From positions 1 through 64,000 of the forward strand of contig JAURHD010000009.1 in the NCBI GenBank assembly GCA_030833445.1: DNA of 64,000 nt. The letters are read 5' to 3'. Position numbers and translations under genes: made by a program. The stretch's first letter is position 1, and every line of letters begins with the position of its first letter. Positions 16,130 through 62,040 of the stretch are shown one piece after another. The notes under the pieces are model-generated. The model searched no databases. It was not told where the DNA came from and saw nothing but the letters and a program-made list of their open reading frames with translations. This stretch comes from Cephaloticoccus sp. (GTDB taxonomy: Bacteria > Verrucomicrobiota > Verrucomicrobiia > Opitutales > Opitutaceae).

Positions 16130-16206
16130 GCGGTGGTAGCTCAACTGGATAGAGCATCGGTTTTCTAAACCGACGGTCGTGGGTTCGAGTCCCGCCCACC
16201 GCGCCA
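16130..16206 (+). tRNA. tRNA-Arg (TCT)
   Basis: A 77-nt cloverleaf with acceptor GCGGTGG/CCACCGC, D-arm GCTC/GAGC, anticodon stem TCGGT/ACCGA, loop TTTCTAA (anticodon TCT), T-loop TTCGAGT, discriminator G and CCA. Its last 16 nt are repeated 54 nt downstream. Confidence 0.97.
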
Positions 16207-16260
16207 GTCTCACCCACGCGGGTCGTTGGTGTCAGGCCAGGTGCGTTGCACCTAGATTAG

Positions 16261-16316
16261 CCCGCCCACCGCGCCATGCTTCGCTCGTTCGAGCTTCGCA
16301 TGGCACGGCCAGCTTC
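16261..16316 (+). repeat. Duplicated tRNA-Arg 3' end followed by hairpin element (copy 1)
   Basis: Bases 16261-16276 repeat exactly the last 16 nt of tRNA-Arg (16191-16206). They run into a 32-nt hairpin (16273-16304): GCCATGC, TTC, GCTCG, TT, CGAGC, TTC, GCATGGC, that is two stems separated by a symmetrical TTC/TTC internal loop, followed by ACGGCCAGCTTCTAA. The same hairpin of equal length and the same trailing sequence stand behind tRNA-Ser at 61811-61856. Between the tRNA and the copy lies a small hairpin AGGTGC gtt GCACCT. It looks like the scar of an element that targets tRNA 3' ends. Confidence 0.65.
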
Positions 16317-61724: not shown

Positions 61725-61814
61725 GGAGAGGTGGCAGAGTGGTCGAACGCGCCTGACTCGAAATCAGGTTTACCCGCAAGGGTAACGAGGGTTCGAATCC
61801 CTCCCTCTCCGCCA
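61725..61814 (+). tRNA. tRNA-Ser (CGA)
   Basis: A 90-nt class II tRNA with acceptor GGAGAGG/CCTCTCC, anticodon loop CTCGAAA (anticodon CGA), long variable arm TTTACCCGCAAGGGTAAC, T-arm GAGGG/CCCTC, discriminator G and CCA. A TACGTT hexamer at 61704-61709 is a likely -10. Its last 19 nt and the following bases are repeated at 61955-61977. Confidence 0.97.
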
Positions 61815-61856
61815 TGCTACGCTCCAAGCAGCTTCGCATGGCACAGCCAGTTCTAA
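61811..61856 (+). repeat. Hairpin element directly after tRNA-Ser (copy 2)
   Basis: The 32-nt hairpin (61811-61842) GCCATGC ... GCATGGC, with inner GCT/AGC pairing and overlapping the CCA of the tRNA, is followed by ACAGCCAGTTCTAA. It has the same length and the same outer stems as the one behind the tRNA-Arg repeat (16273-16304), and similar trailing sequence, so the two share origin. Confidence 0.65.
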
Positions 61857-61936: not shown

Positions 61937-62040
61937 CCGGACTTAAGTCCGGCCAATCCCTCCCTCTCCGCCATGCTTCCATCTACGCCAAGGCCATGGC
62001 GGACAAGACGCTCCAAGCAGCTTCGCAAGGCACGGCCATT
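61937..62040 (+). repeat. Duplicated tRNA-Ser 3' end with palindrome and hairpin element (copy 3)
   Basis: A perfect 16-bp palindrome CCGGACTTAAGTCCGG (61937-61952) is followed by a 23-bp exact repeat of the tRNA-Ser end (61955-61977 equals 61796-61818), then by the hairpin-element sequence interrupted by about 30 nt (from 61978) and continuing as ACGCTCCAAGCAGCTTCGCA and GGCACGGCCA. Thus the tRNA end, a hairpin and the element occur a second time within 160 bp. Confidence 0.6.

Follow-up and report, generated by a model that had tools for sequence, protein, structure and literature searches.

The hairpins behind two tRNA genes in the window, the 64,000-nt stretch of Cephaloticoccus DNA analysed here (contig 72 of a 2.92-Mb draft assembly in 72 contigs), are probably gene-less copies from a family of small mobile elements that occupy the CCA ends of tRNA and tmRNA genes and whose nuclease is a GIY-YIG protein. 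That the elements are mobile is suggested by sequence comparison, which covers position, strand, structure, nuclease linkage, patchy occupancy, multiple element types per site and within-genome families. A first-pass annotation of the same DNA had read the hairpins as scars of an element that targets tRNA 3' ends and duplicates its target, and this interpretation is supported by the wider analysis.

Hairpins at tRNA-Arg and tRNA-Ser in the window

The targeted tRNA-Arg(tct) gene is intact (positions 16130–16206, plus strand; ARAGORN and RF00005). A 54-nt spacer (16207–16260, plus strand) separates it from an exact copy of its last 16 nt, ending in CCA, which a repeat search places at 16261–16276 on the same strand, as the first-pass annotation had it. 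The 32-nt hairpin described there, GCCATGC-TTC-GCTC-gttc-GAGC-TTC-GCATGGC with its TTC/TTC internal loop, is likewise found at 16273–16304. We refer to its form CCA TGC-TTC-GCTC gttc GAGC-TTC-GCA TGG (16274–16303, plus strand), where the CCA that ends the tail copy forms part of the outer stem, as H1. A covariance model of H1 matches 16274–16311 (E 4.9e-8 per genome, E-values being rough), and the trailer CACGGCCA that follows H1 (16304–16311, plus strand) is common to other copies.

The tRNA-Ser(cga) gene (61725–61814, plus strand; ARAGORN) is also an intact target. Here no tail copy precedes H1, whose first bases are the CCA of the tRNA itself (61812–61841, plus strand, by hairpin fit), and the model matches 61812–61849 (E 1.3e-4 per genome, again a rough value). 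The same hairpin and trailing sequence had been claimed for this site. The outer stems are indeed identical, but the left internal loop reads TAC instead of TTC, and the trailer is CACAGCCA (61842–61849, plus strand) compared with CACGGCCA behind the Arg copy. The earlier description lacked a copy of the tRNA-Ser tail; an exact 19-nt copy is present at 61955–61973 (plus strand, repeat search), and behind it stands a second H1 copy (61971–62038, plus strand) that is split by 30 nt (61978–62007). The second hairpin copy matches the first as a 34-nt repeat, 91% identical by repeat search. By eye, the window copies consist of H1 only.

No T-run follows the hairpin in the window, whereas several other tRNAs of the genome have, by eye, terminator-like hairpins with T-runs. 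We therefore rejected an intrinsic terminator as the main reading.

The second Ser hairpin copy is interrupted by a 29-nt repeat (CCATC..CGCCAAGGC...GGCGGAC.AG; 61979–62007) that is distinct from H1 and also occurs behind a tRNA-Leu(gag) gene (L046:1591). Apparently this is a second tRNA-linked hairpin repeat, nested in the H1 copy.

Anatomy of H1 and chance controls

The consensus of H1 is CCA-NNN-T(T/A)C-GC..GC-T(T/A)C-N'N'N'-TGG, its first three bases being the CCA of the tRNA. In a set of 60 distinct hairpins fitted to the ends of tRNA genes, the first of the N pairs is A-T in 3, C-G in 16, G-C in 21 and T-A in 20, and the second is C-G in 36, G-C in 19, A-T in 3, T-A in 1 and T-G in 1; TGG stands opposite CCA in 51 of the 60. 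Since these hairpins were chosen for pairing, comparison with other CCA triplets matters. The hairpin fits at 76 of 209 tRNA/tmRNA ends (67 with TGG), a set enriched through the choice of loci, as against 173 of 33,379 other CCA triplets (28 with TGG). A strict regular expression finds 23 motifs in 588 kb, 18 of them exactly at a tRNA or tmRNA CCA, and none in three mononucleotide shuffles. In 15 gap-free hairpins, also chosen for pairing, standard pairs fill all 150 pair cells, and covariation scores 0.41 where shuffles score 0.12; the number of pair types in these 15 is no higher than in shuffles (7 versus 7.5). The left arm of H1 returns in inverted orientation in 51 of 95 leaders (control mean 6.4), at a median of 135 nt from the CCA to the start of the match.

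The counts at control CCA triplets, together with the E-values of the covariance model, led us to reject a chance repeat. A known RNA family was rejected as well: at the Rfam gathering score, only tRNA, tmRNA and suhB (an sRNA, in L184) match in 10 loci.

Distribution of H1 across the order

The covariance model was built from 15 hairpins, holds the CCA and no other tRNA sequence, and was run on 132 genomes of the order with stricter filters that lose weak matches. It returned 132 matches with E up to 0.01, in 29 of the 132 genomes. Of the best 99 of these 132 matches, 54 lie at the CCA of a complete tRNA or tmRNA gene (4 of the 54 being among the model's training hairpins), 12 at a detached tail, defined by at most 2 mismatches in 15, and 33 elsewhere, one of which is unreadable, lying outside the examined DNA. 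Among the best 20 the corresponding numbers are 16, 3 and 1. The proposed targeting of tRNA 3' ends is supported by where the hairpins concentrate, although 33 of the 99 best matches lie off recognized tails. Some of these 33 are other dispersed repeats.

The 54 hairpins at complete genes are spread over 24 tRNA isoacceptors and tmRNA. In genome G084 the hairpin is present at 12 different tRNA/tmRNA genes and in G028 at 8; no genome of the 132 has more than 15 model matches. The window genome has 10, comprising 6 at complete tRNAs, 2 at tails (the Arg copy in the window and a tmRNA tail on contig C44) and 2 elsewhere, so that 6 of its 42 tRNA genes bear the hairpin. A crude motif scan found a GIY-YIG-like frame within 900 nt of 12 of the 66 tail-sited hairpins, one of them surely false; hence most tail-sited hairpins are gene-less.

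Dispersed hairpin repeats related to H1 also occur off recognized tails at L376–L380 and L395 (genomes G033 and G049) and at L417–L419 (G041).

A small GIY-YIG gene is linked to tRNA genes and to the hairpin

The first-pass annotation had hinted that such elements may carry GIY-YIG nucleases, adding that no such gene survives here. One does survive elsewhere in the genome. The window genome has two PF01541 matches, one UvrC-sized and one small (C44:77990, 83 codons), the second lying outside the window. No other small GIY-YIG gene is present in the genome. Its start lies about 148 nt past an orphan 27-nt copy of the tmRNA tail that carries the same hairpin (G000 C44:77815–77841; L048). The orphan tail lies 16.7 kb downstream of the tmRNA gene, which itself is without such a hairpin. 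The frames between the two look by eye like those of a TonB-dependent receptor, a peptidase and thioredoxin-like proteins. None of them was recognized by eye as an integrase, and a genomic island spanning the interval was rejected.

Of 83 listed non-UvrC PF01541 loci in the order, 48 have a complete same-strand tRNA or tmRNA gene within 600 nt upstream, 2 have one on the opposite strand upstream and 2 have a tRNA gene within 600 nt downstream. No complete same-strand tRNA lies within 600 nt upstream in 35 of the 83, and 4 of the 83 have less than 150 nt of upstream DNA. The set consists of the listed rows with frames up to 204 residues, plus L077 (304 residues) and L035; other frames of at least 300 residues (UvrC-size, several of 304–634) are excluded save for seven UvrC controls, and four rows inside loci already counted were not recounted. 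Linkage to a tRNA is seen at 0 of the 7 UvrC loci and at 0 of 9 UPF0213-like loci, the latter assigned by eye.

To reach beyond the order, named genomes were scanned with alignment A1, which comprises 12 genes, 10 behind a complete tRNA or tmRNA and 2 behind tails. Among the best 80 of 534 named relatives, 66 lie directly behind a same-strand tRNA/tmRNA gene and 1 behind one on the opposite strand. Of the 14 unlinked relatives, 8 have less than 450 nt upstream, and 8 have a plus-strand hairpin upstream of the gene by the model (L176, L177, L180, L196, L210, L218, L224 and L245). The hairpin fits at the CCA in 49 of the 66 linked relatives, 45 with TGG, and does not fit in the other 17. Of the 66 frames, 61 measure 75–110 residues; among the other five, two end prematurely, two are longer and one runs off its contig. 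Taxa with a linked gene include Bradyrhizobium, Rhizobium, Caulobacter, Desulfobacterales, Dependentiae, KSB1, Lentisphaerota, Kiritimatiellales, Tectomicrobia, Melioribacteraceae and Pelagicoccus. On viral contigs 3 related loci were found, none with a tRNA in the DNA examined.

Hairpin and gene also co-occur by genome. Counting tRNA-linked small GIY-YIG genes among the matches listed, 17 genomes have both, 12 the hairpin only, 8 the gene only and 95 neither (p 2.2e-8). With every small GIY-YIG gene among the matches listed, the numbers are 22, 7, 16 and 87 (p 1.9e-9).

Predicted fold of the nuclease

All 12 members of A1 match PF01541. An AlphaFold2 model of one tRNA-linked protein, L188, made with 53 relatives, has a mean pLDDT of 97.3 over 79 residues. 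Its best fold matches are HIGLE (VIA Z 8.4, r.m.s.d. 2.2 over 78 residues) and Slx1 (Z 8.2, 2.3 over 78), which are structure-specific nucleases; I-TevI (VIA Z 6.5, 3.7 over 74) and UvrC domains (Z 5.3 to 5.9) score lower. By sequence the closest solved structures are UPF0213 protein BH0048 (E 1.6e-11) and SLX1 entries (4e-7 to 1.8e-5). As to membership of UPF0213/YhbQ, the tRNA-linked protein is similar to 1zg2, and the NCBIfam models match 0 of 12. The tyrosines, arginine and glutamate that we take to be catalytic are invariant or more than 90% conserved in alignments A1 and A2. The 79-residue model comprises one GIY-YIG fold with no separate DNA-binding domain; a second domain would not fit into frames of about 80 residues.

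Occupancy of orthologous sites

Orthologous sites are occupied in some species and are empty, gene-less or filled by another element type in others. For tRNA-Tyr(gta) of Bradyrhizobium we hand-picked 28 loci with the same downstream flank (20 + 4 + 4), in which tRNA and flank are close together or fully matched, from 117 and 11 genomes searched. By reading, 7 of these hold a type A element with a GIY gene and 6 a type B element with a different GIY gene (frame integrity partly checked). The gene-less loci comprise 11 with type B hairpins (one tandem), 2 with type C, 1 with type D and 1 with a single hairpin. Elements at this site are 54 to 605 nt long. No wholly empty Tyr site was seen in 20 fetched regions, the shortest of which, L313, keeps one hairpin. 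Outside the 28 loci, the type A gene of L268 is decayed, and L269 holds a single hairpin next to a different flank.

In two Bradyrhizobium tRNA-Tyr loci, L270 and L271, the type B hairpin leader is tandemly duplicated upstream of the GIY-YIG gene.

At the tRNA-Arg(tct) site of the window, reading and model together place a hairpin at the CCA in 6 of 29 relatives (L150, L156, L157, L158, L160 and L170), and the model has no match in the other 23, L148 included. Where the same OsmC-like gene lies downstream, the hairpin is present in 1 of 7 (L158) and absent from L145, L146, L149, L151, L161 and L163. L165, which has the window's own downstream gene, is without the hairpin. The first-pass annotation had named a lack of tRNA-end repeats in close relatives at these sites as evidence against its reading, and such a lack is not what is seen.

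Arms and trailers of copies more than 2 kb apart in the same genome are on average 84.2% alike (176 pairs), compared with 79.1% for the same isoacceptor in different genomes (43 pairs) and 75.7% for different genomes at large. With near copies removed (63 copies), the within-genome value is 83.1%, which 0 of 2000 shuffles of the genome labels reached. As far as likeness between copies can tell, this points to hairpins spreading inside genomes and not merely being passed down with their individual tRNAs.

On a tree of 109 tRNA-linked GIY-YIG proteins, the tRNA isotype changes 47 times (78 on average in shuffles, 72 at the lowest) and the phylum group 22 times (48 on average in shuffles). The groups were set by hand from genome names, with unlisted names counted as Alphaproteobacteria and genomes of the order as Verrucomicrobiota. 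Within the hairpin clade, which has 90 proteins, the isotype changes 43 times, the shuffle mean being 62. Isotype changes are many but fewer than in shuffles, so that linkage to a given tRNA persists for a while and is often changed. The tree rests on 81 columns and excludes frames below 60 residues as well as L114, L124 and L129; 54 of its 105 inner branches are drawn open and many forks are unresolved.

Tail copies and sister GIY-YIG clades

Tail duplication, the other part of the earlier reading, is present at Arg and Ser but in no more than a minority of loci overall; as a rule H1 starts from the CCA of the tRNA itself. All fetched loci together yielded 24 tail-copy rows (27 listed, three of them not element tail copies), with tail-to-tail spacings of 70 to 751 nt. 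Exact tail matches of 16–21 nt occur at Ser, Arg, Gly, Gln and one Met locus and start in or just after the T-loop; the tail copy in L096 has a mismatch near the CCA, with about 20 nt matched, and the matches at Asn and the other Met loci are 15–42 nt long. The 16–21-nt copies are compatible with duplication of the target, with an integrase att site and with a point where copying starts. Tail duplication can also arise by tandem duplication, as in L148, or through an integrase.

A nuclease gene between two tRNA tails, which the first-pass annotation expected of some loci, is seen in L060, L076, L079, L085, L102, L116 and L118. All seven are members of sister clades that lack this hairpin; in L222, from the hairpin clade, a GIY-YIG gene likewise stands between the tRNA and a second tail. 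Separate GIY-YIG clades, by eye without H1, stand at Ser (7 of 8), Asn (7 of 7) and Met (3 of 3) tRNAs, and these look more like classical homing genes.

Some of these clades (L057, L068, L079, L060, L102, L100, L116 and L118) are confined in our sample to tRNA-Asn or tRNA-Met. Their genes, by eye without H1, have tail copies behind them and sometimes stand in tandem.

Proposed mechanism and alternatives

The left end alone of the element is defined, by the CCA, and the right end varies. On our reading, an element sits directly after the encoded CCA and leaves the tRNA or tmRNA gene intact. A full element comprises H1, in which CCA pairs with TGG, often an inverted H1 left arm with a second hairpin, H2, and, on the same strand as the tRNA, a single-domain GIY-YIG frame of about 80 residues; forms without the gene, with H1 alone or with H1 and H2, are found at such sites too. 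Most probably the Slx1-like nuclease, whether in cis or in trans, would recognize or cut the hairpin or a cruciform where the element meets the CCA, or else the 3' end of a tRNA gene that is still free. Repair of the break, for which the conserved tRNA tail would provide homology, could then copy the element to other tRNA genes, amounting to ectopic homing. The TGG opposite the CCA may help to choose the site, possibly as a guide by analogy with IS200/IS605 elements, which use guide sequences. The nuclease gene would be transcribed from the tRNA promoter, and targeting together with use of this promoter would account for the strand bias. Gene-less copies such as those in the window would either have decayed or have been moved in trans.

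A bolder generalization, to which we give slightly less than an even chance, is that these elements form a pan-bacterial transposable class, unrecognized so far, whose hairpin-ended DNA is carried from one tRNA/tmRNA 3' end to another by an Slx1-like GIY-YIG nuclease acting alone, gene-less copies moving in trans. The CCA of every tRNA gene would then be half of a recognition hairpin, pairing with the element's TGG, and every CCA-encoding tRNA gene would therefore offer a harmless landing site.

Other explanations account for parts of these data. GIY-YIG enzymes are classic homing nucleases, and free-standing homing endonuclease genes, each tied to one tRNA and capable of allelic homing only, with the hairpins as regulatory leaders, would suit the H1-less clades at Ser, Asn and Met and their tail copies. 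We consider this unlikely: the hairpin clade stands behind many isotypes (43 changes in 90 proteins, shuffle mean 62), hairpins occupy 12 tRNA/tmRNA genes in G084 alone, and the predicted fold comprises one GIY-YIG domain of 79 residues. A paired structure directly at the CCA, mostly on the tRNA strand, could equally serve the host as a tRNA trailer or a processing or termination signal, with the GIY-YIG protein a domesticated nuclease co-transcribed with the tRNA. Such a function is rather improbable given how patchy the hairpin is, both within its own genome (6 of 42 tRNA genes) and at the tRNA-Arg(tct) site (6 of 29 relatives), given that one site holds different types in different species, and given that the window hairpin lacks the T-run of several terminator-like hairpins by eye.

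Similar doubts attach to REP/REPIN-like repeats moved by a RAYT or an IS200/IS605-type HUH transposase, with the GIY-YIG gene a mere neighbour at a hot spot. Internal-loop hairpins, inverted left arms (51 of 95 leaders, control 6.4), gene-less copies and within-genome families are all as expected of such repeats; yet hairpin and GIY-YIG gene co-occur in several phyla, and by genome in the order, and the GTAG/CGTC tags of REP families, as given in the part of PMC3733652 consulted, are not found at the foot of H1, which makes this reading very unlikely. Tyrosine-integrase scars, in which the tail copies are attL and attR, are the most improbable of the explanations considered. Integrase att sites can begin in or just after the T-loop, as the 16–21-nt tail copies do, and an orphan tmRNA tail lies 16.7 kb from its gene, but tail-copy rows number 24 in all fetched loci with spacings of 70 to 751 nt, no integrase was recognized by eye between tmRNA and orphan tail, and neither the hairpin nor the GIY-YIG gene would be explained.

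Relation to known systems

The tRNA-end family resembles REP/REPIN-RAYT systems (REPtrons), described in the parts of PMC3116915 and PMC3733652 consulted as short imperfect hairpins in inverted pairs, with a gene-bearing unit and gene-less copies. Short imperfect hairpins, a gene-bearing unit and gene-less copies recur here; as to inverted pairs, the left arm of H1 returns inverted in 51 of 95 leaders, while the window copies have, by eye, H1 only. It differs in that the linked gene encodes a GIY-YIG protein (PF01541 in 12 of 12 A1 members) and not an HUH enzyme, in that the foot of H1 is CCA/TGG in 51 of 60 hairpins with no GTAG or CGTC tag, and in that copies concentrate at tRNA/tmRNA CCA ends, with at most 15 model matches per genome in 132 genomes. 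The REP families reviewed in the consulted part of PMC3733652 carry GTAG or CGTC tags. Its CGTC-tagged repeats also often end in CCA; identity with them was rejected because, in the same part of that source, their stems carry the CGTC tag and start with A-T pairs.

With I-TevI and SegB of phage T4 the proteins share the GIY-YIG catalytic fold with intact catalytic residues. SegB is reported, in the part of PMC13096335 consulted, to promote amplification of phage loci in a defence setting related to tRNA-Tyr. The present family differs from both: its protein is one domain of about 80 residues, its tRNA targets are many, it has a hairpin leader and derivatives without the gene, and it resides in bacterial chromosomes. 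Slx1 and HIGLE have the closest solved folds, and UPF0213 (COG2827/YhbQ) is closest by sequence. Slx1 joins its GIY-YIG domain to a C-terminal RING/PHD-type domain and works with an Slx4 partner, whereas no second domain is seen in frames of about 80 residues; the UPF0213-like proteins of the order differ in that none is tRNA-linked (0 of 9, assigned by eye). Tyrosine-recombinase integrative elements use tRNA/tmRNA 3' ends and can duplicate the tail. The present elements likewise use these ends and sometimes copy the tail, but no integrase is seen (by eye, in the C44 frames), elements at the Tyr site measure 54 to 605 nt and tail duplications are few.

In its working the family, as we read it, resembles both REP/RAYT and homing nucleases and is a member of neither, lacking defining features of each. 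A widespread family of tiny mobile elements at tRNA 3' ends is apparently undescribed: no description of GIY-YIG/hairpin elements behind bacterial tRNA genes was found in the open-access PMC literature, and one elsewhere in print is possible. Whether the family deserves a class of its own we judge to be about an even bet. Genes for tRNA are the best-known landing sites of bacterial mobile DNA, and the players described there are mostly large and integrase-bearing. If our reading is right, these elements of some 50–600 nt, which use the CCA end and one nuclease of 80 residues and range from Alphaproteobacteria to Dependentiae, would rank with the smallest known DNAs that spread by themselves. 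Repeats without a name and orphan GIY-YIG genes that lie behind genes for tRNA and tmRNA might be accounted for in this way, and the family would offer a compact nuclease with a built-in safe target. The tRNA-Tyr site of Bradyrhizobium exists in many states in related species, so that movement is directly testable there.

Behind the E. coli tyrT gene, 178-bp repeats with a tRNA tail (rtT RNA) form tandem copies of the tRNA 3' tail. Rfam, giving tRNA, tmRNA and suhB alone in 10 loci, sets the present elements apart from rtT RNA, and the tandem tail copies of L148 resemble the tyrT arrangement. In that locus (G160 C3:570429) a tRNA-Arg(tct) gene is followed by three extra tail copies at a spacing of about 118 nt, and its spacer and the 54-nt spacer in the window have GTGTCAGGCC in common.
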